Positions 27,783 through 45,507 of a DNA stretch of 64,000 nucleotides are shown here, one piece after another. The notes under the pieces are model-generated. The model saw nothing but the letters and a program-made list of their open reading frames with translations, was not told the origin of the DNA and made no database searches. Both the position numbers and the translations under genes were made by a program. The first letter of the stretch is position 1. Each line of letters starts with the position of its first letter. Origin of the DNA: Halogranum gelatinilyticum (lineage in GTDB: Archaea; Halobacteriota; Halobacteria; Halobacteriales; Haloferacaceae); the NCBI RefSeq assembly GCF_900103715.1, contig NZ_FNHL01000004.1:1-64000 (forward strand), given 5' to 3'.

Positions 27783-27854
27783 TCAGGTCGGTTAGGCTCC
27801 GGCGTAGTACTGTCTGCGAGTGTCTGCGAGTCTGTTCGCCGCGTGAGACCGGGA

Positions 27855-27863
27855 CTATTTATT
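27855..27863 (+). promoter_or_regulatory. TATA element of aglF
   Basis: ctatttatt is centred about 28 nt upstream of the ATG at 27888, giving a leaderless transcript and supporting the MKAVVLAAG start over an in-frame upstream start at 27843. Confidence 0.6.
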
Positions 27864-27887
27864 GGGTGGCCGGGAGTGGTCAGAAGT

Positions 27888-28622
27888 ATGAAAGCCGTCG
27901 TGCTCGCAGCAGGAGAGGGAACCCGGCTCCGACCGCTGACAGAAGACAAACCGAAAGGGATGGTCGAAGTCGACGGAAAGCCGATTCTCACGCACTGCTT
28001 CGACCAGTTGGCGGAGTTAGGTGCCAACGAGTTCGTCGTCGTCGTCGGCTACCGCAAGCAGGACATCATCAGCCACTACGGCGACGAGTATCGAGGTATC
28101 CCCATCACCTACGCCCACCAGCGAGAGCAGAGCGGACTGGCACACGCGCTCCTCACCGTCGAAGAACACATCGACGACGACTTCATGCTGATCCTCGGCG
28201 ACAACATCTTCGATGCGAACCTCGACGACGTCGTGAAGCGGCAGAAAGAGGACCGTGCGGACGCCGCCTTCTTGGTCGAGGAAGTTCCGTACGAGGAGGC
28301 GAGCCGGTACGGGGTGTGTGACACGAACGACTACGGTGAAATTACCGACGTCGTCGAGAAACCTGAAGACCCGCCGTCGAACCTCGTGATGACCGGCTTC
28401 TACACGTTTTCTCCGGCGATCTTCCACGCCTGCCATCTCGTCCAGCCGTCGAACCGTGGAGAGTACGAGATCAGTGAGGCAATCGACCTGCTGATTCGAA
28501 GCGGCCGAACCATCGACGCGATCCGGATGAATGGGTGGCGGGTCGACGTGGGATACCCCGAGGACAGGGACAAAGCTGAGCGACTGCTACGAGGCGGGGA
28601 ACCAGAAGCGTCGGCGAACTGA
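27888..28622 (+). CDS. aglF: AglF-type sugar-1-phosphate nucleotidyltransferase
   Basis: A 244-residue nucleotidyltransferase starting MKAVVLAAGEGTRLRPLT, with the nucleotide-binding G-x-G-T-R-x-R-P-x-T-x-x-x-P-K motif, the acidic LGDNIFDAN, and near-continuous similarity to Haloferax AglF (for example GEYEISEAIDLLI). AglF makes activated glucose/hexuronic-acid precursors for N-glycan assembly. It has its own promoter but sits in the oligosaccharyltransferase-epimerase series. Full length, no anomaly. Confidence 0.93.
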   Translation: MKAVVLAAGEGTRLRPLTEDKPKGMVEVDGKPILTHCFDQLAELGANEFVVVVGYRKQDIISHYGDEYRGIPITYAHQREQSGLAHALLTVEEHIDDDFMLILGDNIFDANLDDVVKRQKEDRADAAFLVEEVPYEEASRYGVCDTNDYGEITDVVEKPEDPPSNLVMTGFYTFSPAIFHACHLVQPSNRGEYEISEAIDLLIRSGRTIDAIRMNGWRVDVGYPEDRDKAERLLRGGEPEASAN

Positions 28623-28674: not shown

Positions 28675-29661
28675 ATGCAGATACTCGTCACTGGTGGGGC
28701 AGGGTTCATCGGTGGACACCTCGCAGCGCGGTTTGCGGAGGATGGACACGATGTCATCGTCCTGGATAACTTCGAACCGTACTACGATCTCGGGATTAAA
28801 CAGCGGAACGTCGAACAAGGGCGGCTTGCCGCCGAAGAGAGCAGCGGGACGTACACGCTCGTCCGCGGGGATATCCGTGACGAAGAAGTAGTCTCGGAGG
28901 CTGTCGCCGACGCCGACGTCGTCTTCCACCAAGCCGCCCAGGCTGGTGTTCGGACGAGCGTCGAACAACCACAGAAGGTAAACGAGATCAACGTCGATGG
29001 GACGTTGAACGTTCTCGAGGCTGCGCGTGACTCGGAGACAGAACGTGTCGTGGTGGCGAGTTCCTCGTCAGTGTACGGAAAGCCCGAGTCTCTTCCGTAC
29101 GACGAAGAACATCCGACAACGCCAGTCAGCCCGTATGGAGGGTCGAAACTCGCAGAGGAACAGTACACGCGCATCTACAACGAGGTGTACGGATTACCGA
29201 CTGTCGCACTTCGGTACTTCACCGTCTACGGGCCGCGGATGCGACCGAACATGGCGATCAGCAACTTCGTTTCACGATGCCTGAACGACGAGCCCCCGGT
29301 TATCTACGGGGATGGTACACAGACACGGGACTTCACGTACATCGACGACGTGATTCGCGCGAACGAGACACTCCTCGACACCGCTGCTGCTGACGGTGAA
29401 GTATTGAACGTCGGAAGTACGGACAACATCGCTATCAAGACGCTCGCAGAGGAGATTCGAGACCAGCTCGCGCCGAACTTAGAGCTGCAGTACGACGAGC
29501 GTCACGACGCCGACGCCGAACACACTCACGCGGATATTTCGAAAGCGAATGAACTCATCGGATACGAGCCGACCACGACGATTCGAGAGGGCGTCGAACG
29601 CTTCACGGACTGGTACCGAGAGAACCGCGACTGGTACGAGCCGCTGGTGCGGAACTCCTGA
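28675..29661 (+). CDS. NAD-dependent nucleotide-sugar epimerase (extended SDR, GalE-like)
   Basis: A 328-residue protein with NAD-binding TGGAGFIGGHL at the start, catalytic Ser/Tyr-x3-Lys region (SSSSVYG and YGGSKLAEE), and TRDFTYIDDV. Extended SDR enzymes of this type epimerise or dehydrate UDP- or dTDP-sugars. The exact substrate is unclear; a UDP-hexuronate or UDP-Glc 4-epimerase is most likely beside aglF. It lies 52 nt after aglF. Confidence 0.92.
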   Translation: MQILVTGGAGFIGGHLAARFAEDGHDVIVLDNFEPYYDLGIKQRNVEQGRLAAEESSGTYTLVRGDIRDEEVVSEAVADADVVFHQAAQAGVRTSVEQPQKVNEINVDGTLNVLEAARDSETERVVVASSSSVYGKPESLPYDEEHPTTPVSPYGGSKLAEEQYTRIYNEVYGLPTVALRYFTVYGPRMRPNMAISNFVSRCLNDEPPVIYGDGTQTRDFTYIDDVIRANETLLDTAAADGEVLNVGSTDNIAIKTLAEEIRDQLAPNLELQYDERHDADAEHTHADISKANELIGYEPTTTIREGVERFTDWYRENRDWYEPLVRNS

Positions 29662-29837: not shown

Positions 29838-30956
29838 ATGAAGATTCTTCGCGTCGCACAGAACCTCTATCCGGAGGTCCCCGGCGGTGGGACGTACCAC
29901 GTCCACGCGATGAGTCGCGACCAGGCGGCGATGGGCCACGACGTGACTGTCCTGACGGTCACCGACGATGACTCACTCCCACGACGAGAGGAACGTGACG
30001 GCTACACCGTGATTCGTCGGTCCCCGACGGTGGAGTTACTGGGTAACGAGATCTCGGCTGGCGTTGCCAAAGACCTAGCCTTCGCCCGTGACTACGACGT
30101 GATTCACGCACACTCTCATCTCTACTTCTCGACGAATTTGGCGGCGTTGAAGCGGCGACTGGGGAACATTCCACTGGCGATTACGAACCACGGACTCTAC
30201 TCACAGACGGCTCCGGAGTGGGTGTTTGATGCGTATCTGAAGACGGTCGGTCGGTGGACGTTCGACAGTGCGGACGTCATCTTCTGTTACACCGAAGAAG
30301 ACAAAGGTAGGATTCGAGAGTTCGGTGTCGAGGCCGATATCGAAGTCGTCGCGAATGGTATCGACCAGACGCGGTTCACGCCGGAGGGGCCGCAGAGCGA
30401 GTTGGTCGATAGCGATGGGCCGGTCGTGCTGTTCGTCGGCCGACTCGTCGAAGGGAAGCGTCCGGGAGATGCAGTCAAGGCGTTCGCGGGCGTTCGCGAG
30501 GAACATCCGGACGCAGAACTGTATCTGTGCGGGGACGGGCCGCTCCGTGAGGAGTTAGAACAGTTGGTTCGGGAAAGAGGGCTATCGGAGTCGGTGACGT
30601 TCCTCGGACACGTCGACTACGACGAGATGCCAGCCATCTATCGGTCGGCGGACGTACTCGTGTTACCGAGTCGTGCGGAAGGACTGCCACGGACGGTGTT
30701 GGAGGCATTCGCTTCGGGGACGCCCGTAGTTGCGAGTGACCTGGAGCAGGTTGCGCCGATTGTCGAGGAAGCAGGAGAGACTGTTAGAATTGGGGATGTG
30801 AAGACATATATACGGGAGATTTCTTCACTAATCAGCGAGAACAATCGGAGGAAACAACTTGGCCTGAATGGACGTGAACTCATTGATGAAAGGTATAGGT
30901 GGGAAGATACAGTGACTGCAACAACACAAAAGATTTCCAAATTTCCAATTGAATAA
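29838..30956 (+). CDS. GT4-family glycosyltransferase, composition-mosaic 3' end
   Basis: A 372-residue GT-B enzyme (MKILRVAQNLYPEVPGGG) with the nucleotide-sugar-binding lobe signature VVLFVGRLVEGKRP and the E-x7-E motif EGLPRTVLEAFASGTPVVAS. It transfers a sugar from a nucleotide donor to the growing lipid-linked glycan. The first ~310 codons are GC-rich like the upstream genes; from about 30,775 (after VRIGDVKTYI) the last 60 codons become AT-rich and lose the GC-rich third positions. This marks the left edge of the AT-rich cassette and suggests a recombination joint inside the gene. Confidence 0.92.
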   Translation: MKILRVAQNLYPEVPGGGTYHVHAMSRDQAAMGHDVTVLTVTDDDSLPRREERDGYTVIRRSPTVELLGNEISAGVAKDLAFARDYDVIHAHSHLYFSTNLAALKRRLGNIPLAITNHGLYSQTAPEWVFDAYLKTVGRWTFDSADVIFCYTEEDKGRIREFGVEADIEVVANGIDQTRFTPEGPQSELVDSDGPVVLFVGRLVEGKRPGDAVKAFAGVREEHPDAELYLCGDGPLREELEQLVRERGLSESVTFLGHVDYDEMPAIYRSADVLVLPSRAEGLPRTVLEAFASGTPVVASDLEQVAPIVEEAGETVRIGDVKTYIREISSLISENNRRKQLGLNGRELIDERYRWEDTVTATTQKISKFPIE

Positions 30957-31084
30957 ATCCATTGCAGTTCAACTTTCCCACAGAGAGCGCAAAGATAACA
31001 TTTTTTGCTGGTTTTCAGTGGAGTTGTGGAGAATAAGACTTCTAATCAGCAGTGCAAATATGATAATCTCTATTTTAGCACTAA

Positions 31085-32170
31085 CTACCTAGATATTTCC
31101 CGGTAGAGATCAGCATAGCGTTGCGCAGATGCGTACATATCGTACATACACTCAATTCGTTTTTGTGCACTCCGTCCAATCTCTTTTCGACAATCTTCGT
31201 CAAGTAGTAACTCAATACCTTTGCGGATGCTGTCGACACTTTGCGGATCAACTCGTATACATGCATCTCCCGAAACTTCGCGAAGTACATCAATATCACT
31301 CACGATACTGGGAGTTCCTGTTGCCATCGCTTCGGCATTAGCAACTCCAAAGCCCTCATATAGCGACGGAAACGCAAAAATATCGATTGCTTCGTAAAAT
31401 GCGTACACGTCAGCACGCTCGGGTAACCACCCCAGAAATGTGACAGAGTCCGTCAATCCACGTTCGCGAACTTCCCGCTCGAGTGTAGATCTAGAAGGGC
31501 CATCACCCGTAATTGCAAGGTGTAATTCTGGATAATTTTCAGATAGAGAACCCACAGCACGAATCAGCCGTTTTAGATTCTTTTGGGGTACCAAACGCCC
31601 ACCAGTACCGATAACTACGCCATTAGGGAGGTCAACCGAACGACGTATACTGACTTGCTCCCTGATATTTCGGATGTCTGCTCCGTAATGAATCACTTGG
31701 TGTTCGGTTCCCGAAGCGAGAAGGAGTAGTTGTTCCCAGGTTTTGAAACTACGCTTAGTAGCGTACGAGTTGCTAACTATCGTATCGGAGAGTGCGTTTG
31801 ATATTCCGTTCACCAAGTTCTTAATTGAGCTATACTCAGCGTGAGTATTGTGTTGAGTAGCGACGACAGGTATATCCACTTTTCTGGCGAGTAGTGTTGC
31901 CACCGAGCCAATGGCAATTGGATGAACGTGCAAAACATCATAATCGCGATCTGCAAGTATTCGAAAGAGCTTCAGATAGGCGCGTAAATCAATCTTTGAT
32001 TTCGCTTCCAGACTCTCAACCTCGACACCAAGTGTATGTTCAGAAGCGTTTCCCCACGCAAATATATCCACTGAGACTGAGGGGTTGTCAATGAGGCTTG
32101 CGGCTTCAAGTGGTGTAGAGCCCTCGTCAGCCCCGCTCAAAAGTATAGCTACATCCGTGGTTTCAGTCAT
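31085..32170 (-). CDS. GT4-family glycosyltransferase
   Basis: A 361-residue GT-B enzyme (MTETTDVAILLSGADEG). It has the DVLHVHPIAIG region, the UDP-sugar lobe LHLAITGDGPSRSTLE and the E-x7-E motif EGFGVANAEAMATGTPSI. Typical length. It is convergent with the preceding GT4 gene and begins the AT-rich cassette. The sugar and linkage are unknown. Confidence 0.9.
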   Translation of the reverse strand: MTETTDVAILLSGADEGSTPLEAASLIDNPSVSVDIFAWGNASEHTLGVEVESLEAKSKIDLRAYLKLFRILADRDYDVLHVHPIAIGSVATLLARKVDIPVVATQHNTHAEYSSIKNLVNGISNALSDTIVSNSYATKRSFKTWEQLLLLASGTEHQVIHYGADIRNIREQVSIRRSVDLPNGVVIGTGGRLVPQKNLKRLIRAVGSLSENYPELHLAITGDGPSRSTLEREVRERGLTDSVTFLGWLPERADVYAFYEAIDIFAFPSLYEGFGVANAEAMATGTPSIVSDIDVLREVSGDACIRVDPQSVDSIRKGIELLLDEDCRKEIGRSAQKRIECMYDMYASAQRYADLYREISR

Positions 32171-32313
32171 CTGTATTGGTCGCGTGTTCGTGAGACTATT
32201 GAGTGTGTCGAAGGAATGTTATCCTTGTCTGTTAAGAAGATACAGATTGTTGTAGTCTCTCAGAACAACACAAGAGGGAAATTATTTCCAATGAGAATTA
32301 GTATCCTTATTTG

Positions 32314-33543
32314 ATGGTTCAGGATGTCTCTAATATTGAACGAGGATTATTACTATTCACAGTATTTCTCTCGCCATTGTTCTTTGTCCAAATTGCCGGT
32401 AAGAATCTCGCACCATGGGATTTCATTTTCATAATTACAGTGCTTCTTTATGCTTTGAGAACTGGTAGCGTAGCTATTGGGCCGACAAAACGGTACGTTC
32501 TAGGGGTGGTTATCTTCGTGACCGCAAGTGTTCTCTCTCTCTTGAATAGTCCTTTTCCGGCGAATTCATTTCTTGATTCAGGTCAGTACTATCTAATCCT
32601 GTTTGCCGTCGTTCCAGCATCATTGACTGTATTTAGCGATCGTAACTCACGATGGTTGGGTTACCTTACTGTGGCTGCAATTTTAAATATTATCTCTGTC
32701 TTGTGCATAATATATAGCGTGGCAACTGGCAGTTTCACTGTTGAAATTGTATACGCGAACCACAATATTATTCCAGTACTTACAGCGGGTGCAGCAATTA
32801 CTGCAGCAGGACTTGCTCTATGCGGAAACAAACCCACATATTTTCGGGTGATCGGTGCCGTATTGATGTCGGTGAATACACTCGCTGTGTTTCTTGGACC
32901 ATCAGTTGGTGCGTATATAATGGTAAGTGTTGCTATTTGGTTGTTTGTCTGGTGGAGGGCTGTTCGGCATCCAGGTATAGAAAAAATATTTTGGACGGTC
33001 TCTTTCGTTGGGGGAGTTGTCGGACTCTTGGTTCTTCTCGGCAAGTGGCAAGTAGTTTATCAAATCGGATTTGAACACCGATGGCCAATGTATCGTGAAG
33101 CCTTCTTTGATGGATTTCAAGCGTTCCCATTAGGAGGAGGAATGTCTTCGGCAGACATCTACCTTGCAGACATTCCAACTGACATTTCAAGAGAAGTACA
33201 CAACATATGGTTGTCGCATTGGCTGGAGTTCGGGGTTCTTGGGATCATAGGAACCGTGTTGATTTTCTCCGACTGGCCTGTTGCCCTCTACCAGACGGTC
33301 TCTTCAGATGAGCAAAGAATTCCGGCATGGGAGTATTCTCTTGTCGCCCTTTTTGGTGCGTGGTTTATACAAGTCCAGTTCCAGCCGGCACCTGTAACTC
33401 GATTTTGGTGGGTGATATTCGGATTATCGTGGACAGTATTACTCGATCGCCAGCAATCCGTTCAAGTTGTGAGTACCTCCTCAGAACAACGCAGCATCCG
33501 CGAGAACCTATCGGACCAACAAGAGAGTAATTTAGTAGAATAA
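32314..33543 (+). CDS. O-antigen ligase/polymerase-like membrane protein
   Basis: A 409-residue polytopic protein with about ten hydrophobic segments and a large extracytoplasmic loop in the second half (YREAFFDGFQAFPLGGGM ... REVHNIWLSHWLEFGVLGI). That H-N-x-W-L pattern is typical of the O-antigen ligase/Wzy superfamily, which joins or polymerises lipid-linked glycans outside the membrane. The ATG at 32314 is used; a TTG just before it would be weaker. AT-rich, consistent with the cassette. Confidence 0.82.
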   Translation: MVQDVSNIERGLLLFTVFLSPLFFVQIAGKNLAPWDFIFIITVLLYALRTGSVAIGPTKRYVLGVVIFVTASVLSLLNSPFPANSFLDSGQYYLILFAVVPASLTVFSDRNSRWLGYLTVAAILNIISVLCIIYSVATGSFTVEIVYANHNIIPVLTAGAAITAAGLALCGNKPTYFRVIGAVLMSVNTLAVFLGPSVGAYIMVSVAIWLFVWWRAVRHPGIEKIFWTVSFVGGVVGLLVLLGKWQVVYQIGFEHRWPMYREAFFDGFQAFPLGGGMSSADIYLADIPTDISREVHNIWLSHWLEFGVLGIIGTVLIFSDWPVALYQTVSSDEQRIPAWEYSLVALFGAWFIQVQFQPAPVTRFWWVIFGLSWTVLLDRQQSVQVVSTSSEQRSIRENLSDQQESNLVE

Positions 33544-33672
33544 TATCAAACAGGATCCGGATGTGGCACTCAATAGCCATTCGTTTATAATTGTGCAGAA
33601 TTAGAAATCCTCTTGCGAATAGTATTGCTTATAAAAGTCTTGACGTTCCTCAATTAGCTATATTAAATTCTG

Positions 33673-33988
33673 TGGGTGCATCGGTTAATCGACAGCGTTA
33701 CCGGCCCGCCGAAGGCGCAACCAAGGTTGATCACCGTCGACGAAATCACTGTCAACACCAATAAGGTGTATTTTAGAATTTGCCGCAATAAACCCGAATC
33801 TAAAAGAGGTTCTTCACGCTGCGATGCTCAAGAATCGGAGGATTGATCCGACAATTACGTTTCTTCACAGAACTTGTGGGAAGCTCAACCGCTTAGCGAC
33901 TGTGTCTCTAGCCAATGCATTTGGCTATCAGGCTGCCTTCTCTCGAGTGAGGTTAAATGGTCAAATCACTATACATATCGAAGCCTGA
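33673..33988 (+). pseudogene. Decayed IS6-family-like transposase fragment
   Basis: The first frame reads WVHRLIDSVTGPPKAQPR and LITVDEITVNTN, like the catalytic-core start of IS6-family DDE transposases. A second frame from about 33,797 reads IDPTITFLH and LANAFGYQAAFSRVRLNG, like the later core. Stops and frameshifts separate them and no inverted repeats are visible. The rest of the 33544-34129 gap is AT-rich and empty. This is an old relic. Confidence 0.65.
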
Positions 33989-34129
33989 TCAAAAGTGCTT
34001 GGTGCGTTCAATATAGGGTGGACCGTTTCCACAACTAACGGATGGGCAGTCAACTCGGCGTGAAGCACCAGCTCGTGATAAAATAAACTCATCTGTCAAA
34101 TGTGGGTGAGAATAAAGTGATAATACGAT

Positions 34130-34978
34130 TCAGTTCTGTTTCCGGAAAATTCCGCAGTTGTAGAATGTTGCGTATTTCCCTTCTCTTGTGGCTGAAACTT
34201 CTTGGAAAACATCGGTGTGTAATATATCATCTGATAATAAAACACCGCCAGGTACCAAAGAATCGATGATCTTGTTGTATGCGTATCTCATTTCACTAGG
34301 GTCTTTACTTGCATCATAAATCCCAAAATCAAGTCCATCGATCTCTTCAAGCACTGGCTCCAGTATCTTTGTGAAGTCTCCAATTTGTATCTGGTAATTG
34401 TGTCGCATTCGAAGGCTCTTGGGTGCAATCCAACCGACTTCTTTCTCATCGGGAATGTAGCCACCCGCATTCTTAAGGGCAATTTTTCCCCGACGTTCAC
34501 GAATCTGGTTCTCAAACTGAGGTCGGTCAATACCATATACCACAGAATTGTCTACTGAAGTTTGGTCTAATGCGGTCAACAAGTAGAAAGTAGACATACC
34601 ATTTGCGACACCAACTTCCAACACAGTTGACGGATCTAGTAGTCGTGAGATTATGTAAGCGGTTTCACCATTGAAATCCATTCCACCAGGGCTATATGAC
34701 TTATTAGCAAATTCGTTCTCCACCTCCGCTAATCTATTAGGAATCGGACTTCTCATTATCTCAGAGTAGTACGAATCGATTTTTGACTCTTCGCAATTGA
34801 AGAGTCGCGCCAGTTCGCGACGTCTTTCAGAGGCTGCGCGTTGGCTATCCAGTTGCTCCTTATTAGGAGTGGCATTCAACGAATTTTTAACCACACGAAG
34901 TGCCTTACTTGGATTTTCAAGAGCACGCCGTGCGTCACTTGGATTGAGGAACTGAAGCAGGTTTCGGAGATCAGACAT
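34130..34978 (-). CDS. Class I SAM-dependent methyltransferase-like protein
   Basis: A 282-residue protein (MSDLRNLLQFLNPSDARR). The SAM-binding motif VLEVGVANGMSTFYLL is near residue 118, followed by VVYGIDRPQFE and, later, LDFGIYDASKDPSEM and PGGVLLSDDIL. The pattern resembles the cephalosporin-hydroxylase/Methyltransf_24 group often found in glycan loci, where members methylate sugars. It is alone in a 2-kb stretch flanked by two transposase relics, in opposite orientation to its left neighbour. Confidence 0.82.
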   Translation of the reverse strand: MSDLRNLLQFLNPSDARRALENPSKALRVVKNSLNATPNKEQLDSQRAASERRRELARLFNCEESKIDSYYSEIMRSPIPNRLAEVENEFANKSYSPGGMDFNGETAYIISRLLDPSTVLEVGVANGMSTFYLLTALDQTSVDNSVVYGIDRPQFENQIRERRGKIALKNAGGYIPDEKEVGWIAPKSLRMRHNYQIQIGDFTKILEPVLEEIDGLDFGIYDASKDPSEMRYAYNKIIDSLVPGGVLLSDDILHTDVFQEVSATREGKYATFYNCGIFRKQN

Positions 34979-35244
34979 AACAAAGAACTCACTCTATAGG
35001 GAAAAAAAGATACGCTTTTACCGAGGCTTGAACCTAGATTTGCTATTCCATTCTATAATCAAAATATGCTGACATAGCCTGCTTGCGACTACAGTACAGA
35101 AACAACGAGAAAGAGTGAGTGATCAATGAAAGGTTTCTCGCAGAGGCTGGTAAGAAGCATCACAGTAGCCACTTTTGCTCTTGTCAGGGACTTATTAATA
35201 GAGGTAGAAGTACCCTGCATCTCCCAGCGTAGAACGCTCCCTCA

Positions 35245-35500
35245 AGTGATTTCCAGTGAGTGAATGGGTTAGCTGATGGGGCTATAGACCCGCCGAGGGT
35301 GCAGCTGAGAGGAATCAGTGTCTAGAGGAGTATTGCTAACCATAACGACAATACATTTTAGATGAATACATTATGCAAACATCGAGATAACGGTGATTCC
35401 TCACCCCACATTGTTCGACACAGGACTGATCCAGCGGGTACGTTTCTCCACTATGTTTGGGAGATATACGATTGCTCAGAGCTTATGTTTTAGCCGAGCA
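35245..35500 (+). pseudogene. Second decayed IS6-family-like transposase fragment
   Basis: Short stretches in the same order as in the relic at 33673 can be read: NGLADGAIDPPRVQLRGISV near 35,260-35,330, and RTDPAGTFLHYVWEIYDCSE near 35,420-35,480, separated by stops. They match the same transposase region as the first relic, but the two are not copies of one event (sequence differs widely). The remaining parts of 34979-35583 show no gene. Confidence 0.5.
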
Positions 35501-35583
35501 CTCAACAGTCGAGCTATCTCAGAGGTTAACTAGACAGTGCTCAGTGAGAGTTAACATTAAATTTGTTTGATATATAGTTATTG

Positions 35584-37023
35584 TTATCGGTGTTCTTGAA
35601 TCAATTTCTTCATTTTGAATCGGATTTCAGAATCAAGAATAAGCAGCAGAGAGAAATAAATCAGGCCACCAAATAATATCAGAATTGTAGTATTATATAA
35701 TTTCCCATAAACCAGTTGGAGAGATAAAAAGGGTAAGAATAAAAACATTATGGCCGCAGAGATAATTTGCATGACAATCATTGGCTCAAACGGGAATCCC
35801 AGATCTTTTCTTAGGATATAGACATAAGCCCCAAGTCGTAAAATTTCAGTGGATACCGTAGCAACTAGAATACCAATAAGTCCGTGTGTCAAAGTAAGTG
35901 CAGTTGCTGTAGGTAAAAATATTATCACAATACCCACATTCACTCGAAAGTTAATTTCTGGTTGATTAAGACCGTCAACAACGTTCGTGTATTGAAGTCT
36001 ATAAGTATATATTAGTTGAAACAGTGCCAACCCAACCAATGCAGGCCAAGCGCGAACATACTCAGGAGTATAGAGAACCGCGAGAAGGTCTTGGCCGAGC
36101 ACTATCGAGCCTGCTAGCAGTGGAAACCCAAATAAGCCAGCAAATCGGGTACCTTGTTGAAGCTCCCGCTCAACTCCCTCCTTGGCTCGCGACGCAAGAC
36201 CACTAGTTTTGACACTAAGAGTTCGTGCTAAGACTACAGCCGCAGTTACAGAGGGGATGGTCAAACGAAGTGCAGCCTCGTAGAATCCAGCCGCTGCATT
36301 ACCAGCAAGGGCACTCAACAATAATATGTCCGCTCTAGAGTACAATCGCTGCAAAAACTTGTTTGGGACACTATATCGAGCGAAAGAGAGGGTTCTGTAG
36401 GCAGTTTCTCTAGAAGGCAGCGTGGGGTGAATATCGAGAAGGAACAAAATAAGCAGAAAGGCAAGGAAGTTTGCACACGCAACAGCCCAAATCAGCATTG
36501 GAACCATAGTTGTTAAAGATAGAATACCAACTACTGCAAGTAGACGAATAAGAGATCGGCCCGCATTTGCTATTGTAGCGGCACCCGGGTTACCAGTTCC
36601 AGTATAAGTGTCGAAAGCTATTGAGAACAGTCCGAGCGTTAGAGTAGTCACAATAACACCGAAGCTATCGGAAACTGTGAGTCCGAACAGAGGACCACTC
36701 GTACACCAGTAAACTAGTCCGACTATGGCACCAAGTAAGAGCGAGTAAGTGATTGCGAATAAAATGCCCGCACCAAGATATTCACTTGAAGAGGAACCAA
36801 TCTCACTGACCCGTTTTCGGATTGCTACACCAGTACCGTCAATGACTTGGCATAGAATCTCTGCAGCAGAGAGAAGTACGTAGAACGAACCAACTGTTGA
36901 TGGGTTGAGGAATCTAGTAAGTACAAGGACTTCAATGAACCCACTTATCAGCAACAACACTCGCCCCACCATACCGATTACAGTCTCTCGACCAAGGCTG
37001 AGAGAGCTAGTATCCTTTGCCAT
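35584..37023 (-). CDS. Polysaccharide/lipid-linked glycan flippase (MATE/MOP superfamily)
   Basis: A 479-residue protein with about twelve to fourteen helices. The N-terminal pattern GRETVIGMVGRVLLLISGFIEVLVLTRFLN.. is typical of Wzx-like flippases (RfbX/PST family), which move lipid-linked glycans across the membrane. The start ATG at 37023 overlaps the stop of the upstream GT4 gene by one base (TGATG), indicating coupled translation. AT-rich like its neighbours. Confidence 0.88.
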   Translation of the reverse strand: MAKDTSSLSLGRETVIGMVGRVLLLISGFIEVLVLTRFLNPSTVGSFYVLLSAAEILCQVIDGTGVAIRKRVSEIGSSSSEYLGAGILFAITYSLLLGAIVGLVYWCTSGPLFGLTVSDSFGVIVTTLTLGLFSIAFDTYTGTGNPGAATIANAGRSLIRLLAVVGILSLTTMVPMLIWAVACANFLAFLLILFLLDIHPTLPSRETAYRTLSFARYSVPNKFLQRLYSRADILLLSALAGNAAAGFYEAALRLTIPSVTAAVVLARTLSVKTSGLASRAKEGVERELQQGTRFAGLFGFPLLAGSIVLGQDLLAVLYTPEYVRAWPALVGLALFQLIYTYRLQYTNVVDGLNQPEINFRVNVGIVIIFLPTATALTLTHGLIGILVATVSTEILRLGAYVYILRKDLGFPFEPMIVMQIISAAIMFLFLPFLSLQLVYGKLYNTTILILFGGLIYFSLLLILDSEIRFKMKKLIQEHR

Positions 37024-38105
37024 CAATCAGCTTTGATTTTTGTTTTCTCATAAGCTCTCTGAGCGATTTCAGAGATTTCAGCCTGAAATCGCTCCACGCT
37101 GTACTGTCTTGCTTCTTCGATGATTTCTTCTCGCGACCAACCAATTTTCTCCGGCTCAAACCTCTTAATAACGTCACGCAACTCCGGGATTCCTCGATCA
37201 TACAAAATCCCATTTTTTCCATGGTTTATCTGATATTGAGTGTACCCCTCGCGGACTCCAATTACAGGAGTTCCAGAAGCAAACGACTCAATTGGAACAA
37301 TACCAAAGTCCTCAGCATGAGCGTTGAAAATGAATGCTTGAGCTTCGCCTAACCGCCTGCGTTTCTCCTGTTCGTCAAGGTAGCCAACGAATTCCACGTT
37401 ATCTGGGGCAATCTCTTCAAGTCTGTGCTTTTCCGGTCCATCTCCGCCCACAACCAACTGTTTATTAAGACCGTCAAACGCACGCACAATCTCGTCAATT
37501 CGTTTTTCTGCGCGAAGGTGTGAAAATGTGAGATAATAGTCCTCTTGTTCGCGAGGTTCATATGAGTCAACGTCAACCGGTGGGTAAACGACTTCGACAT
37601 CGTCAACGCCCCAGTATCGCTGTACCCGCCTGGCTACCAATTCACTATTTGCTACCCAAATGTCTGGGAACGGTATCGTCTGTGCATAGAGGGTGCGCAG
37701 TGCTGTTCCATACAGTTTCCCGACAAGTGTATTGCCAGTTTGCAAGAAGCGATGGTATGCAGCATAGGGTGTGCTGTGTACGTACCGCACAACAGCTTGG
37801 GTGTCCCGCGGAACATACCATCCTGGATTGTTTCCACTCTCAAAAACGACGTCCGCGTCATGAAGTTCTGGAACATGCTGCCAAGCTACTGCAAAGTAAA
37901 GGTCTCGAGCAGTAGTTGATTCAGAACTGACACGGCGCGCAATTGAAGAGTCAAATAACTCGGTCGTGCCAACATCATCCGCGACTACACCTGCTAGTTC
38001 AAAGCCGAGATGAAGATTACAACTAAATATCCGAGCCAGTTCTTCGGCTACAAATAGGGCACCGCCTCGATCAAGTGCTTCAGAATGTGCAACTCTAATA
38101 TCCAT
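37023..38105 (-). CDS. GT4-family glycosyltransferase coupled to the flippase
   Basis: A 360-residue GT-B enzyme (MDIRVAHSEALDRGGALFVAEELAR). It has YYLTFSHLRAEKRIDEIV, LVVGGDGPEKHRLE and the E-x7-E motif EDFGIVPIESFASGTPVI. It probably adds one of the last sugars before flipping, since its gene overlaps the flippase start. Divergent from the sulfatase-like gene at 38220. Confidence 0.9.
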   Translation of the reverse strand: MDIRVAHSEALDRGGALFVAEELARIFSCNLHLGFELAGVVADDVGTTELFDSSIARRVSSESTTARDLYFAVAWQHVPELHDADVVFESGNNPGWYVPRDTQAVVRYVHSTPYAAYHRFLQTGNTLVGKLYGTALRTLYAQTIPFPDIWVANSELVARRVQRYWGVDDVEVVYPPVDVDSYEPREQEDYYLTFSHLRAEKRIDEIVRAFDGLNKQLVVGGDGPEKHRLEEIAPDNVEFVGYLDEQEKRRRLGEAQAFIFNAHAEDFGIVPIESFASGTPVIGVREGYTQYQINHGKNGILYDRGIPELRDVIKRFEPEKIGWSREEIIEEARQYSVERFQAEISEIAQRAYEKTKIKAD

Positions 38106-38219
38106 TCTACCGGTCCAAGGTAATATAGCGTCGACTCGGGAGGTTTTAATCCCTTTTGTCTGAGGTCAAGGAACACTTGGACCGATTCTTTTATCGGACC
38201 CATTGAATTGTGTAACAGC

Positions 38220-39578
38220 ATGAACGTCCTCTACATTACTATCGATGCACTTCGTGCCGATCATGTGCAAGAGGACTCGATGCCTTCGATGCGGTCATTT
38301 GCTGACGGTGCCATCGAGTTCACAGAATGTGTCGCTAATGGGCCAGGAACACCTTGGTCATTTCCTGCCTTGTTAGCCAGCCGATACGCTGGTTCAACGG
38401 ACGGGTTTGGGATACCGGAACCGGGAGACGCTCATCCAACCTTGGCCGAAGTTCTCTCAGAAGCAGGAATGGCAACTTCTGGGTTCACAGATAACAGATT
38501 TGCGTCCAGTTCATACAATTATGACCGGGGAATGGACGAGATGCATGATAAGGGAGCGACCTCTCCACTAAAGGGTGCAAAGCAGTTCTTACGCGAGAAG
38601 CTCGACCACGACGGAGTTGTCTTTCAGTCACTTCTTCGAGGATATCACTTGCTGGACAATGTATTTGTCACCGCCAGTGATCGTGACAGCCGATTTGTTA
38701 GAGCAGAAGTTTTCGTTGATGAATTGATAGAATGGACAGAAGAACAAAACAAAGATTGGTTCGCCTGGCTTCACCCGATGGACGTTCATGCCCCTTACGA
38801 GGCCCCACCTGAGTACCAACGTAAATATTTGGACGAACCAGTTAGTCGGGTCAAGTCTCAGAAGCTAGCCCGTACTGCTGTTCACCATCCCGATGAGTTA
38901 AGCGATGAGGAGTGGTCTCTACAACAAGATCTTTACAAAGCCGAATGTCGGTACCTTGACGACCAACTTTCAAGGCTAATGGACACTCTTGAGCATCGGG
39001 GAGAGTTAGACGATACTGTTGTTGTCCTCACTGCCGATCACGGTGATATGCACGGAGAGCATCAGAGAGGTGGACATCCGCAGGAATTTTGGGAAGAGGT
39101 TATTCGAGTCCCCTTAGCACTTCGACTTCCTGAGTCAAACCCGGCAACTATTAATGGACAGGCTGCCCTCATCGACGTTCCTCCGACAATTCTTGATGCG
39201 CTTAATCTCAAAATTCCGAGTTCGTGGGATGGTCAATCGCTACTGTCCCGAATTAACGGTGACTCAACAGCACGGAAGCACGCATTTGTTGACGTTGGTG
39301 CAACGTTGAACCGGCAGCACGCAGCTCTTCGTCGCTCTGATGGGTGGAAGTTGTTGCGGCACGAGAAAAAAGAATATTTGTTCAACCTGTCAGAGAACCC
39401 CAACGAAGATGAAGAGAAAAACAAGGCTCAGAGTGCTACCAAAGAGTATGACGATCTGTCTGCAACTCTCGACAAACACTTAGACAACATGGAGCGCAGG
39501 AGAGAACTAGGAGAGGCAGGTATTGAAGATGAAGAAATGATTGAAGACCATCTGAAGGAGCTCGGCTACTTGGAGTAA
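38220..39578 (+). CDS. Alkaline-phosphatase-superfamily (sulfatase-like) protein, active-site Cys absent
   Basis: A 452-residue protein starting MNVLYITIDALRADHV, with metal-binding Asp at the start, LTADHGDMHGEH and later RGGHPQEFWEEVIRVPL, all typical of the sulfatase/LtaS fold. The Cys or Ser of C/S-x-P-S-R that becomes formylglycine in sulfatases is missing: the loop reads GPGTPWSFPALLASR, with Thr at the likely nucleophile position, as in phosphotransferases such as LtaS. It may therefore transfer or cleave phosphodiester groups on the glycan rather than sulfate. No signal peptide is seen. An amidotransferase follows 7 nt later. Confidence 0.82.
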   Translation: MNVLYITIDALRADHVQEDSMPSMRSFADGAIEFTECVANGPGTPWSFPALLASRYAGSTDGFGIPEPGDAHPTLAEVLSEAGMATSGFTDNRFASSSYNYDRGMDEMHDKGATSPLKGAKQFLREKLDHDGVVFQSLLRGYHLLDNVFVTASDRDSRFVRAEVFVDELIEWTEEQNKDWFAWLHPMDVHAPYEAPPEYQRKYLDEPVSRVKSQKLARTAVHHPDELSDEEWSLQQDLYKAECRYLDDQLSRLMDTLEHRGELDDTVVVLTADHGDMHGEHQRGGHPQEFWEEVIRVPLALRLPESNPATINGQAALIDVPPTILDALNLKIPSSWDGQSLLSRINGDSTARKHAFVDVGATLNRQHAALRRSDGWKLLRHEKKEYLFNLSENPNEDEEKNKAQSATKEYDDLSATLDKHLDNMERRRELGEAGIEDEEMIEDHLKELGYLE

Positions 39579-39585
39579 TCTTATA

Positions 39586-41472
39586 ATGTGTGGAATTGCC
39601 GGCCAGTTTGTGGAAAGCGGGAATCCAGATGGGGAAGAGCTCGAATCAATGAGCTCATGCCTGACTCATCGTGGCCCCGACGACTCTGGAGTTTACCTTG
39701 ATGGTTCTGTAGGTCTTGCGCATCGCCGACTCAGTATTATAGATCTAAATACTGGCCGACAACCAATCTTCAACGAAGATGAATCCGTTGCAGTGATATT
39801 CAATGGTGAAATTTACAATTACCGCCAACTTAAAAAATCGCTCATTTCTGATGGCCACCGGTTCACGACTGAGACAGATACCGAAGTTATAGTACACCTA
39901 TACGAAGAGAACGGACTGTCTTTCGTAGAACAACTCCAAGGAATGTTTGCCTTTGCTCTTTGGGATTCAGATAGGGAACGGCTAGTTCTCGCACGAGATC
40001 AGATAGGAATCAAACCACTACTGTTCTCACATGACGGTGATACTACCGCATTCGCATCTGAACTCCCCGCACTATTGAGAACTGAAATAGATCACGGAGG
40101 ACTTGATGAGTCAGCGCTTGCACGATATTTCGCCTTCGGATTTATCCCATCTCCTGACACCGCGTTTTCAAATATATCAAAGCTACAGCCAGGGGAGATG
40201 GCTGTTGTTTCCGAAAACGGCCTCAACATAGAGTCGTACCACACTCTATCTGTTTCCCCCATATCACTGGGAATGGAGGCCGCTAGCTCAGTATTACGTA
40301 CTCAACTTGAGAGTGCTGTAGAGCGACGGCTTCAAAGCGACGTCTCGCTGGGGGCATTTTTGAGTGGTGGAATTGACTCAAGTATCGTTGTTGGCCTTCT
40401 ATCTCAGCTACTCGACCAGCAAGTGAAGACATTCACTGTTGGGTTTGAAGAGGATCGATTTAATGAATCGCGAGCTGCTCGCAAAGTAGCCAACTACCAC
40501 GAGACAGACCACACTGAATTTACGATCACTGCAGCCGATGTGCGTAATAAGATTCCCGAAGTGATTGAACGCTTAGGTGAACCATTCGCCGACCAATCAC
40601 TGATACCAACATATGTAGTTGCCCGTGAGACAGGCCAAAATGTGAAAGTTGCTCTCTCAGGGGACGGTGCTGACGAGTTATTTAGCGGGTACGACCGTTA
40701 TCGTGGCGAGTTTCTCTCGCGGTATTATCGAACACTACCGTCGTCAATTCGACAACAGATTATCGAGCCAGCAGTTTCCTGTCTGCCAGCTTCACGCTCA
40801 TCTACAACTGGTGAACTTGGCCGTTTGGCACAGAAATTTGTCCGTGGTGGTGTAGAAGATATCAGTGCTCGTCATTTTGAGTGGATGCGTATCCCCAATG
40901 AAAATGCCGCCCAAGCAGTTATTCCAGACGTGGCCTCTCAGGGAAAGCAGAGATTAGCTGAGGAGCATAATATGCTGGGAACGTGGCTTCCGGATGACCG
41001 TCAAGACGACCTCTCTGCAATGCAAGCAGTTGACGTTCAATATACGCTGCCAAATCAGATGCTCAACAAGGTTGACACTGCAAGTATGTACAATTCCCTT
41101 GAAGTGCGTGTTCCATTTCTTGACACTAGTGTGGTTGAGTATGCTCTTGGACTACCGATAAACCATAAGATGACAACTCGAACTCGTAAGCGTGTGCTTA
41201 AAAATGCATTTGACGATATCTTGCCAAAAGAGGTCTTACAACGAAACAAGCAGGGCTTCGATATGCCTGTTGGGGAGTGGTTCAAAGAAGAACTTCAAGA
41301 CGATTTCCGTACTACGGTAAGTACACTTGAAACGGATATGCTTGATATCAATGAAGTAATGGACATATATCAAGCACACGTCAAAGACGAAGCGGAGCAT
41401 GGAAAGTTCCTCTGGACAGTATACGTGTTCGCAATATGGCTTCGCCGAATGCGCAGGAACAACGTTCTTTGA
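39586..41472 (+). CDS. asnB: Glutamine-dependent asparagine synthase-like amidotransferase (AsnB)
   Basis: A 628-residue enzyme with N-terminal Ntn glutaminase (MCGIAGQF, Cys2 nucleophile) and a C-terminal ATP-pyrophosphatase domain with FLSGGIDSS and ALSGDGADELFSGYDRY. AsnB transfers ammonia from glutamine to an acid, with ATP. In glycan loci such enzymes (WbpS/AsnB-type) often amidate hexuronic acids; the position after a sulfatase-like gene suggests such modification here rather than asparagine supply. Start ATG 39586. Full length. Confidence 0.9.
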   Translation: MCGIAGQFVESGNPDGEELESMSSCLTHRGPDDSGVYLDGSVGLAHRRLSIIDLNTGRQPIFNEDESVAVIFNGEIYNYRQLKKSLISDGHRFTTETDTEVIVHLYEENGLSFVEQLQGMFAFALWDSDRERLVLARDQIGIKPLLFSHDGDTTAFASELPALLRTEIDHGGLDESALARYFAFGFIPSPDTAFSNISKLQPGEMAVVSENGLNIESYHTLSVSPISLGMEAASSVLRTQLESAVERRLQSDVSLGAFLSGGIDSSIVVGLLSQLLDQQVKTFTVGFEEDRFNESRAARKVANYHETDHTEFTITAADVRNKIPEVIERLGEPFADQSLIPTYVVARETGQNVKVALSGDGADELFSGYDRYRGEFLSRYYRTLPSSIRQQIIEPAVSCLPASRSSTTGELGRLAQKFVRGGVEDISARHFEWMRIPNENAAQAVIPDVASQGKQRLAEEHNMLGTWLPDDRQDDLSAMQAVDVQYTLPNQMLNKVDTASMYNSLEVRVPFLDTSVVEYALGLPINHKMTTRTRKRVLKNAFDDILPKEVLQRNKQGFDMPVGEWFKEELQDDFRTTVSTLETDMLDINEVMDIYQAHVKDEAEHGKFLWTVYVFAIWLRRMRRNNVL

Positions 41473-42067
41473 AAATGGCAACGCAGGTCCTGATAGATTA
41501 GTTGTTGATTCGGTTGGTCAGTTTACCCCTCACAAACAACTCCAGCCAGTCATGGGTCACATTTGGTTTTGCTTCAACTCCTCCTGCCTTCCTAAATGCG
41601 TCCCTCTCTAATCAACTCCCCCCTGCTCACAACTCACCGTATACGCAGCTTCCAATCTCTCCCCACATCTTCCCGAATTACTCCGGCCAACTTCTGAATT
41701 CTTCCATAGTCTCAGTTCTGACGTAGTGCACTTTACTGACGTGTCCCGTCGTCGGTACTCTCAAATCTGCTTACAAAATAGTGTCCCCAAAAGCCCTCAA
41801 AAAGAAGGTGTCAACCATACTTTAGTCGCTTGATTAGACTGTGTTACAGCCTCGTGATTTGTAGATTATTTGACACAAATAAATAAATTTTGAGGCACAA
41901 TAATTTCATCACCTTAGGTAGTTTATAGAAGTTTGTGTACCGGCCCAAGAAATCCGACTCCACCTCGTTTGTTGAAAATATCAGTGTTTAGAGGCTCAGG
42001 CATAGTTTAGTGAAGTATGTAGCGACTACTCTTGCTTTGGTAGTGACCTTTACACAGAACGAAAACT
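41473..42067. other. AT-rich intergenic region; possible coding debris on the minus strand
   Basis: About 600 nt without a gene. On the minus strand, 41,510-41,745 reads as short coding-like pieces (for example ERDAFRKAGGVEAKPNVTH, DWLELFVRGKLTN) interrupted by three stops, so it may be a decayed gene of unknown type. From about 41,745 on, only AT-rich sequence is seen; the GC content returns to that of the chromosome near 42,070. Confidence 0.35.
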
Positions 42068-42076
42068 GGTTTATCA
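42068..42076 (+). promoter_or_regulatory. TATA element of the DUF4330-type gene
   Basis: ggtttatca is centred about 27 nt upstream of the ATG at 42098, as expected for a leaderless transcript. Confidence 0.5.
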
Positions 42077-42097
42077 GACGAGCAAACATCCTCTTCC

Positions 42098-43192
42098 ATG
42101 AACATCATCGACGAAGAGGGTCGCCTCTTCGGCTACGCCAACGTCGTCGACGCCCTCGTCGTGCTGGTCGTCGTTGCCGTCGTTGCGGCGGGCACTGCGT
42201 TCGTCCTCGCTCCCGAACCCGAGCAGCCCGAACCCACCACCGCGACCACCAACGCGACGCTCGACCTCGGGACGCAACCGGACTACATCGCCAGCAGCAT
42301 CGAAGCAGGTGACTCCTTCGCACCGGCCGCCGACAACGAGCTCACTGTCACCGACGTCCATCTCGCACCGGGCGGAGACGGCACCAGAGTCGTCCTCGGT
42401 GTCGAACTCCAGGGCACCGTAGCGGGCGACACGATCAAATACAACGGCGCGCCACCCCGACTGGGCCGCAGCCTCACGATACAGACGGACTCGTATCAAG
42501 CGTCCGGGACTATCCGCGCCGTCGGCGACACGGAGACGTTCGATACCACGTCGACAGAGCTCCTGACGCGGACGACGCTCTCGGCCGAAGACGCCCGGAA
42601 CCTCACTGCTGGACAGGAGATCCGCGTCGCAGGGCGGACAGTTGGGACCGTCGAGTCCGTCACCACGTACGGAACAACCAGCCCCGACCGCAAGCAGGTC
42701 TACGTCGGTCTCTCACTGGATACCGTGACACTCGAGCGGCAGCCCCGCTTCGGCGGGACGGTCGTCCGAGAGGGAGCGACCGTTCCGGTACAGACCAACG
42801 TTCAGAGCTTCACCGGCGAGATCCAGCGCGTCGGGACGACGAGCCAACCCGGTGAACAGGCGGCCCGGACCGTCACGCTTCGGATGCGGAACGTGCCGCC
42901 GGAGGTCGCAGAGAGCGTCCAGGCAGGAATGGAGGAGTCCAACGCTGAAGGAACCGTTGCCCGGCTCACCGACGTGGAGCGATCGGAGTCGACGGTCGTC
43001 CTCACGAGCGACGACGGAAACATCTACGAGCGCGTCCACCCCGTCAATCAGGACGTCCGACTCACTGCCGAACTGTCCGTCCGTGAGACGGCGACCGGAG
43101 CGACGTTCAAGGGACAGACGTTACAACAGGGACGGACGGTTGTCCTCGATCTCGGCACCGTGACCGTCGAAGCAACCGTCGTCACCGCTTGA
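42098..43192 (+). CDS. DUF4330-family membrane-anchored protein
   Basis: A 364-residue protein with one N-terminal transmembrane helix (about 17-37, VDALVVLVVVAVVAAG) and a large extracytoplasmic beta-rich part with repeated halves (LTAGQEIRVAGRTVGTVESV and similar). The N-terminal ID.EGRLFGYANVVD pattern is the DUF4330 signature; the family is of unknown function and often found near glycan or envelope genes. The gene restores normal GC after the AT-rich cassette. A second gene follows after 3 nt. Confidence 0.8.
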   Translation: MNIIDEEGRLFGYANVVDALVVLVVVAVVAAGTAFVLAPEPEQPEPTTATTNATLDLGTQPDYIASSIEAGDSFAPAADNELTVTDVHLAPGGDGTRVVLGVELQGTVAGDTIKYNGAPPRLGRSLTIQTDSYQASGTIRAVGDTETFDTTSTELLTRTTLSAEDARNLTAGQEIRVAGRTVGTVESVTTYGTTSPDRKQVYVGLSLDTVTLERQPRFGGTVVREGATVPVQTNVQSFTGEIQRVGTTSQPGEQAARTVTLRMRNVPPEVAESVQAGMEESNAEGTVARLTDVERSESTVVLTSDDGNIYERVHPVNQDVRLTAELSVRETATGATFKGQTLQQGRTVVLDLGTVTVEATVVTA

Positions 43193-43704: not shown

Positions 43705-45507
43705 CTATTCGACGGTCACGCTCTTCGCGAGGTTCCGCGGCTTGTCGATGGACCGACCCATTCGCTTCGCCATGTGGTAGGCGACCAACTGTAGCTGGAC
43801 GTTCGCGAGCAACGGTGCCATCCGGCCGTTCGTCTCCGGAATCTCGATGACAGCATCCGCATACCGCTCGGCGTCCGACTGGCCGTCGGTCACCACCACG
43901 ACCGGCGCGTCCCGTGCTTCGACCTCTTTGACGTTGCCGATGGTCTTGCGAGCACGCTCGTCGTCGCCCGTCACCACCGCGAACACCGGCGTCTCGGCAG
44001 TCACGAGTGCGAGCGGTCCGTGTTTCAACTCGCCCGCGGCGAAGCCCTCGGCGTGTTCATAGGTGATCTCTTTGAACTTGAGCGCGCCTTCTAGGGCGAC
44101 CGGGAAGTGCAGTCCGCGGCCGATGAAGAAGAACGACGAGCAGTCGCCGTACTCCTCGACGATTTCGGCCGCATTCGACTCGTCGAGCACCGTCTGAATC
44201 TGCCCTGGAAGGTTGCGGAGGGCCGCGACCAGCTCTCTGGTGCCGCCGCCGGACTGCCCGACCAGTCGCTCGACGAGGAGATTTACGCCCACGAGCTGTG
44301 AGGTGAACGTCTTCGTCGCGGCGACGCCGATCTCCGGTCCGGCGCGGATGTAGAGCACGTGGTCACATTCGCGCGACGCCGTACTACCGACGACGTTCGT
44401 CAGCGCGAGCGTTTCCGCGCCTCGACTGCGTGCTGCCCGAAGCGCGCTGAGGGTGTCGGCCGTCTCGCCGCTCTGGGTGATGCCGACCACGAGCGTTCCG
44501 TCCGGAATCGGCGGCGTCGACGTCGCGTACTCGCTGGCCAGGTAGGCGTTCGCCGGAATCCCGGCGTCGCGCAACAGCGAGGCCGCGTAGAGCGACGCAT
44601 GATACGAGGTCCCGCAGGCGACGAGCTGGACCGTCTCGGGCGTCTGAATGTCGTCGAGTTCCTCGACCGTGACCGACCCCGAGAGTTCGTCGACGCGGCC
44701 GCTCAGACACTGTCGGAGCGCGGTCGGCTGCTCGTGAATCTCCTTGAGCATGAAGTGGTCGTAGCCGCTCTTACCGGTCTGTTCGGCACTCCACTCGACC
44801 GTCGTGACTGACGGGTCGGCCACAGAGCCGTCTCGCTCGGTCACGGTCCACCCGTCCGGGCGGAGCGTCGCGAACTGTCCGTCTTCGAGGTAGACGACGT
44901 CTCGGGTGTGCTCCAGAAACGCGGGGACGTCGCTCGCGAGGTAGTAGCCGTCGTCGCCGATACCCAAGACGAGCGGCGAGTCGTTGCGGACCGCGAAGAT
45001 GGCGTCCTCGTCCGCGACGACGCAGGCGAGCGCGTAACTACCCTCCAGGCGGTCGACTGCGCGGCGGAACGCGGTCTCGGCGTCGTCGCCCTCGGCGAGA
45101 TAGGCGGCGACGAGATGTGGGACGACTTCCGAGTCGGTCTCACTCGTGAAGCTGACGCCGTCGGCTTCGAGTTCGTCGCGGAGCGTCTGGTAGTTCTCGA
45201 TGATGCCGTTGTGGACGACGGCGACCGTCTCGTCCTCGTCGGTGTGCGGGTGGGAGTTGCGGTCCGACGGCGGCCCGTGGGTGCTCCATCGGGTGTGACC
45301 GATACCGGCGGTGCCGTCGAAGGTACGTTCGGAGACTGCATTCTCTAACGCAGACAGTTCGCCCTCCTTCTTTGCGACCTGGAGCGTCCCGTTCGCGACG
45401 GCGATGCCGGCCGAGTCGTAGCCGCGGTATTCGAGCGTCGAGAGCCCCGAGAGGAGCACGTCATCAGGCCGTTGGTTCCGACCGACGTAGCCAACGATGC
45501 CGCACAT
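43705..45507 (-). CDS. glmS: Glutamine:fructose-6-phosphate aminotransferase (GlmS)
   Basis: A 600-residue enzyme: Ntn glutaminase domain from MCGIVGYVG (Cys2 nucleophile; about 2-215) and two SIS sugar-isomerase domains (about 280-420 and 450-590; VVGITQSGETADTLSALR and a C-terminal lysine-containing NLAKSVTVE). It makes glucosamine-6-phosphate, the first step to UDP-GlcNAc. The start ATG overlaps the stop of the glmU-like gene by one base (TGATG), so the two are coupled. Confidence 0.96.
   Translation of the reverse strand: MCGIVGYVGRNQRPDDVLLSGLSTLEYRGYDSAGIAVANGTLQVAKKEGELSALENAVSERTFDGTAGIGHTRWSTHGPPSDRNSHPHTDEDETVAVVHNGIIENYQTLRDELEADGVSFTSETDSEVVPHLVAAYLAEGDDAETAFRRAVDRLEGSYALACVVADEDAIFAVRNDSPLVLGIGDDGYYLASDVPAFLEHTRDVVYLEDGQFATLRPDGWTVTERDGSVADPSVTTVEWSAEQTGKSGYDHFMLKEIHEQPTALRQCLSGRVDELSGSVTVEELDDIQTPETVQLVACGTSYHASLYAASLLRDAGIPANAYLASEYATSTPPIPDGTLVVGITQSGETADTLSALRAARSRGAETLALTNVVGSTASRECDHVLYIRAGPEIGVAATKTFTSQLVGVNLLVERLVGQSGGGTRELVAALRNLPGQIQTVLDESNAAEIVEEYGDCSSFFFIGRGLHFPVALEGALKFKEITYEHAEGFAAGELKHGPLALVTAETPVFAVVTGDDERARKTIGNVKEVEARDAPVVVVTDGQSDAERYADAVIEIPETNGRMAPLLANVQLQLVAYHMAKRMGRSIDKPRNLAKSVTVE

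Follow-up and report, generated by a model that had tools for sequence, protein, structure and literature searches.

A probable exchangeable AT-rich cassette with its left seam inside a glycosyltransferase gene of the AglB-linked glycan island of Halogranum gelatinilyticum

The AglB-linked island and its AT-rich middle

In Halogranum gelatinilyticum, a GT4 glycosyltransferase gene (GT4a) is written in GC-rich codons over most of its length and in AT-rich codons at its end, where a run of AT-rich glycan genes begins, which raises the question of how a compositional joint came to lie inside an intact reading frame. We analyzed the surrounding 64,000 nucleotides (positions 1 to 64,000 of contig NZ_FNHL01000004.1, hereafter the window) together with related haloarchaeal loci, and consider the region to be an AglB-linked N-glycan island of the replacement type, in which the AT-rich middle, approximately 30,770-42,100, is probably an exchangeable cassette with a seam in GT4a.

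Two independent maximum-likelihood change-point estimates delimited an AT-rich stretch of 11 kb, with the left change point at 30,775 (3-log-unit range 30,725-30,818), near codon 310 of the GT4a gene, and the right one at 42,117 (3-log-unit range 42,074-42,151), where the DUF4330 gene begins. The original prediction, which had placed the stretch between about 30,775 and about 42,070, was thus accurate to within tens of bases, and its claim of a shift in the last 60 or so codons of the GT4 gene held as well: the open reading frame at 29838-30956 is intact, and its GC3 goes from 0.71 before codon 310 to 0.34 after it (permutation p = 5e-5). Control genes had no such step, ruling out a general end-of-gene effect. 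GC3 was 0.37-0.47 for genes within the cassette vs. 0.65-0.84 for the flanking genes; exceptions among the outer genes were the GlmU-like gene (45507-46703; 0.56) and a small number of genes further to the right (0.61-0.67).

The gene for the oligosaccharyltransferase AglB, which the original prediction had not mentioned, lies 2 kb upstream of GT4a and is followed by nucleotidyltransferase, epimerase, and GT4a genes, with DUF4330, GlmS, and GlmU-like genes to the right of the cassette (Table 1). An aglB gene beside glycosyltransferase and sugar-nucleotide genes is the arrangement of AglB-dependent N-glycosylation clusters, so the stretch is identified as an AglB-linked N-glycosylation island, and the product of the cassette would be a glycan transferred by AglB. 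The late glycan functions proposed from the letters alone agreed with Pfam matches for three GT4 enzymes, the methyltransferase, the flippase, the sulfatase-like protein, and the AsnB-type amidotransferase. The ligase-like protein had no match of its own in the Pfam search, but its 53% identical Halorhabdus homologue matches Wzy_C at E = 2e-6, which does not reach the curated cut-off. Immediately outside the window, a second pair of GlmS/GlmU-like genes (81%/73% identity; L205-L206, G000:C4:68751-90000) adjoins further AT-rich glycan DNA (GC 0.39-0.50), and a second GT4 gene with a flippase gene (33% identity to the window flippase) was identified on a different contig of this genome (L005, G000:C3:206697-209198).

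Table 1. Features of the AglB-linked island, with coordinates in the window
Feature	Position	Strand	Evidence and remarks
AglB/STT3 oligosaccharyltransferase	25446..27782	+	PF02516, PF18079; GC-rich left neighbour; 61-62% identity to genus-mates
Sugar nucleotidyltransferase	27843..28622	+	PF00483; 93% in genus-mate G002
NAD-dependent epimerase	28675..29661	+	PF01370; nearest relatives Halorussus, 78-83%
GT4a body, codons 1-310	29838..30767	+	PF00534/PF13439; conserved; GC3 0.71, like that of the host; left side of putative seam
GT4a tail, last ~62 codons	30768..30956	+	GC3 0.34; probable exchangeable part
GT4b glycosyltransferase	31085..32170	-	PF00534; 48% to Halorhabdus cassette counterpart
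Polytopic Wzy/O-antigen-ligase-like protein	32311..33543	+	53% Halorhabdus cassette homologue with Wzy_C match, E = 2e-6
Decayed IS6-type transposase remnant	33673..33967	+	tblastn E 7e-12, split across two frames
Methyltransferase	34130..34978	-	PF13578; between both IS remnants
Second, shorter IS6-type transposase fragment	35416..35490	+	E 9e-4
Wzx-like flippase	35584..37026	-	PF13440; best relative 37% among 243 order genomes
GT4c glycosyltransferase	37023..38105	-	PF00534; 68% to Halorhabdus
Sulfatase/alkaline-phosphatase-fold protein	38208..39578	+	PF00884; 66% Halorhabdus, 55% G007
AsnB-type glutamine amidotransferase	39586..41472	+	PF00733, PF13537; 58-63% in Halorussus and G007, adjoining GT4a there
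AT-rich cassette right edge	42074..42151		GC change point; in Halorubrum, left seams of DUF4330 lie at -64 to -105
DUF4330/MlaD-like gene	42098..43192	+	PF14221; GC-rich right border gene
GlmS and GlmU-like genes	43705..46703	-	right flank common to genus-mate

Distribution and ancestry of the border and inner genes

At a threshold of E <= 1e-80, GT4a orthologues were identified in 87 of the 293 genomes sampled from the order and in 22 of the 171 from the window's family (f1, including Halorubrum and Haloprofundus). Of the predicted exchange at a conserved GT4 gene, the replaceable cassette with its left edge in GT4 is supported, but the conservation is not, the gene being accessory. Both genus-mates examined lacked a GT4a orthologue (best match 35%) and DUF4330, and the AglB-linked genes differ between their loci. 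In genus-mate G002, the site between AglB and GlmS holds other glycan genes, with neither GT4a nor DUF4330; the last left-side gene in common with the window is the sugar nucleotidyltransferase, and the difference starts right after it, at approximately 28.6 kb, so the exchangeable region is nested, with the AT-rich block as its inner layer. An ancestral AT-rich block would be expected to recur in related strains as the same inner genes with the same composition; the genus-mates lacked both border genes, and most of the inner genes were found in a single relative, a Halorhabdus, which belongs to another family. Separately, the AglB gene of 1 genus-mate (L171, G001:C30:21624-23960, from a genome with 11% contamination) shows GC3 rising from 0.61 to 0.84 at codon 226 and is a candidate for another mosaic gene.

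The nearest relatives of the window's GT4a belong to Halorussus, another family (63-77% identity, best 77%), and the window and G252 form a supported pair (100/96). Halorussus likewise provides the closest sequences to the tail, which rules out a conflict between the donors of body and tail in this gene and leaves room for the joint to have entered with an imported gene instead of forming in this lineage. Everything from the epimerase (approximately 28.65 kb) to DUF4330 could accordingly have come in at once, possibly from a Halorussus-like source, with a GT4 gene that was already chimeric and a joint recording an older event elsewhere. Such an import would account for genus-mates that lack GT4a and DUF4330 while G002 keeps AglB, the nucleotidyltransferase, and GlmS/GlmU, and for an epimerase and a GT4a that point to Halorussus and not to members of the family (Table 1). 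However, the GT4 tails of Halorussus at matching loci have a GC3 of 0.57-0.90 and are not AT-rich, so acquisition of the AT-rich tail postdates divergence from the sampled Halorussus sequences, unless an unsampled donor was involved, and we regard import of the complete block as rather unlikely.

Halorhabdus amylolytica H27, from a different family, encodes counterparts of the sulfatase-like protein (66%), GT4c (68%), flippase (35%), ligase-like protein (53%), and GT4b (48%), in a cassette with a GC of 0.41-0.52 vs. 0.58-0.68 for its host. Relative to AglB, this cassette is collinear with that of the window, except that the ligase-like/GT4b pair is turned, and the collinearity rules out a cassette inversion, which the position of AsnB (adjacent to GT4a in Halorussus and G007, at the opposite cassette end in the window) might have indicated. 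The flanking AglB, DUF4330, and GlmS proteins are 43%, 36%, and 68% identical, respectively; with the first 2 so low, identity alone does not prove transfer, although the sparse distribution of the inner genes favours transfer of the cassette between families. The AT-rich block of Halorhabdus ends inside AglB, where GC3 falls from 0.72 to 0.36 at codon 633 (L269-L272, G403:C24, AglB 127438-129819), and its GT4a is a frameshifted, truncated remnant beside the opposite end of the cassette. Because the Halorhabdus cassette is equally AT-rich, this composition is a property of the cassette itself and gives no indication of when it arrived.

Joints in GT4a and at DUF4330 among relatives

We aligned 69 GT4a orthologue rows to the window, with some loci representing the same genome reached twice, and found a mean identity of approximately 70% over residues 1-310 and 31% over residues 311-366. 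A tail under weak constraint could by itself produce this difference, and closely related pairs were therefore compared. Among pairs from Halorubrum plus one neighbouring genus, body identity (residues 1-300) was 85-93% and tail identity 16-36%, whereas other pairs with equal body identity had tails at least 80% identical. Breakpoints in the Halorubrum pairs fell at codons 294-306 (log-likelihood gains 25-127), and third-position identity was 0.73-0.87 for bodies but 0.23-0.39 for tails, a fall for which lack of constraint alone is insufficient. Six tail classes were found among the 8 genomes of this body cluster. One pair (L210/L212) has 80% identical DNA from 3 kb upstream through codon 300 and no similarity beyond, and 2 others (L209/L123 and L096/L158) have the GT4 gene and downstream DNA in common but not the upstream DNA. 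Across closely related pairs, which are not statistically independent, downstream DNA was in common in 15 of 15 tail-similar pairs vs. 1 of 18 tail-dissimilar pairs.

Exchange at GT4a thus occurs in Halorubrum, as it does at DUF4330. In 8 Halorubrum pairs with 85-89% identical DUF4330 genes, homology begins 64 to 105 nucleotides before the start codon, and the DNA upstream is unrelated. Among 30 DUF4330 loci, the left side was AT-richer in 10 and the right side in 2. GT4a and DUF4330 lie 8-25 kb apart in 7 genomes with differing contents, and the interior of this frame is AT-richer than both flanks in 5 of them; the interior in G082 exceeds just the left flank in AT content, and that in the low-GC host G007 barely differs from its surroundings. 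Few of the window's inner proteins could be matched to proteins of the other frames. The exchange reading of the original prediction was supported once relatives were aligned, with tails and downstream genes swapped together and a right edge at DUF4330 in Halorubrum.

These comparisons bear on a further alternative, that no exchange took place, the GT4 tail being weakly constrained, the island AT-rich by local mutation or selection, and the falls in composition and identity coinciding by chance. AT-rich glycan islands are indeed common among relatives and tails are poorly conserved over all orthologues, but weak constraint fails for the Halorubrum pairs, in which third positions diverge and downstream DNA changes along with the tail, and it does not explain a synonymous GC3 step within one reading frame; we consider this account highly improbable. 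Of 57 GT4a genes, 9 had a GC3 down-step in the final 30% of the gene and none an up-step, vs. down-steps in 3 of 154 controls (Fisher p = 5e-4). Sharp in-gene joints were detected by pair comparison only in the Halorubrum clade, and the joint in the window is recognized by composition; in Halococcus, Natronococcus, and Haloarcula, GT4a tails and bodies mostly vary jointly.

In a structure model (pLDDT 87.7), the seam lies near the strand at residues 297-300, and the exchanged tail comprises the final short strand together with the three C-terminal helices; the tail in the window retains the conserved W..TV..TT motif. GC3 steps were also observed at residues 145-185, near the inter-domain hinge, in L217, L175 (G012), L093, L107, L108, L215, and L099, a possible second seam position.

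A tblastn search with an intact DDE_Tnp_IS240 transposase of Halorussus identified 2 decayed IS6-type remnants, absent from the original prediction, on either side of the methyltransferase gene, and a 30-nt direct repeat links 33839-33868 to the second fragment (35416-35490). No counterpart of this methyltransferase was found in any relative locus retrieved for comparison, and the remnants suggest that an IS element brought the gene in. Mobile-element insertion of the whole cassette (through an integrase, an IS, or an integrative plasmid) instead of homologous recombination could draw on these remnants but has very little in its favour, since they are internal and not at the edges, the window has no tRNA gene (which rules out tRNA-associated integration), no integrase was found among the annotated cassette genes, the repeat search returned no edge-flanking repeats stronger than background pairs, and the GT4 frame is intact over the joint with its motif retained. 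An invertible switch was likewise rejected, as the sole edge-flanking inverted pair (30566-30591 / 42194-42219, 77%) was no better than random pairs.

Under the preferred explanation, homologous recombination in common flanks, the AT-rich middle would be one of many alternative cassettes swapped among haloarchaea. The left crossover would fall in the last well-conserved stretch of GT4, right after the EGLPRTVLEA motif, a position at which incoming DNA carries its own last three helices and all downstream genes, and the right crossover would fall at the DUF4330 promoter or gene start. Such a swap would leave the GT4 gene chimeric yet intact and replace the late glycan steps with new ones, and we infer that the joint in the window arose through such an exchange.

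Relation to known islands and significance

Replacement of surface-gene islands through recombination is known in haloarchaea (PMC11078007, PMC4033161, PMC4535781, PMC5867893, PMC6011602). The homeocassettes of Halorubrum ezzemoulense are likewise mutually exclusive, function-related islands at the same position, their exchange being ascribed to homologous recombination in conserved flanks, but they lie between intact core genes of one species and have at least half of their genes as divergent homologues of the alternative island (PMC11078007). The window cassette has an edge within a gene, an accessory border gene, and contents mostly non-homologous between species, and so falls outside this class. 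Closer are the replacement flexible genomic islands, including the S-layer/cell-wall island GI1 of Haloquadratum walsbyi, in which surface-structure genes are swapped at a fixed site by homologous recombination; the evidence there consists of SNP gradients in bordering genes and fosmids, and the accessible text describes no recurrent joint within a glycosyltransferase or AglB (PMC4033161, PMC4535781). As in that class, different contents occupy the same position here, both at the AglB-to-GlmS site of G002 and in the 7 frames between GT4a and DUF4330, the contents have a broad surface glycan function in common (glycosyltransferases, flippase, sulfatase-like, and AsnB-type proteins), and recombination in common flanks is seen by pair comparison at the GT4a/DUF4330 joints of Halorubrum.

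Sets of glycosyltransferases around AglB also vary between strains of Haloferax and Halorubrum lacusprofundi, and within-gene recombination has been reported in aglJ and aglD (PMC5867893, PMC6011602). Unlike those clusters, the cassette described here has a flippase, ligase-like, sulfatase-like, and AsnB genes and a defined frame between GT4a and DUF4330. Within our incomplete coverage of the literature, no recurrent joint in one glycosyltransferase gene with a tail linked to the cassette was found. For virus escape, which the original prediction named as a possible driver of the exchange, published findings point both ways: deletion of aglB in H. lacusprofundi left HRTV-DL1 unaffected but affected a membrane-containing virus (PMC10384203).

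We tentatively propose, as a possibility that falls short of the case for the cassette itself, that GT4 is the recombination hinge of glycan switching, with a conserved catalytic body and an interchangeable three-helix tail that travels with the cassette, a role that AglB would play in Halorhabdus. Each swap would then yield a chimeric enzyme matched to the new pathway. Haloarchaeal surface glycans vary as bacterial serotypes do, and the site of exchange has so far been defined mostly as islands between genes. The pair of joints in the GT4a tail and at the DUF4330 promoter, which recurs across genera and for which AglB can substitute as a joint gene, offers a simple marker to find and type such cassettes and opens a test of whether tail and cassette need to match.
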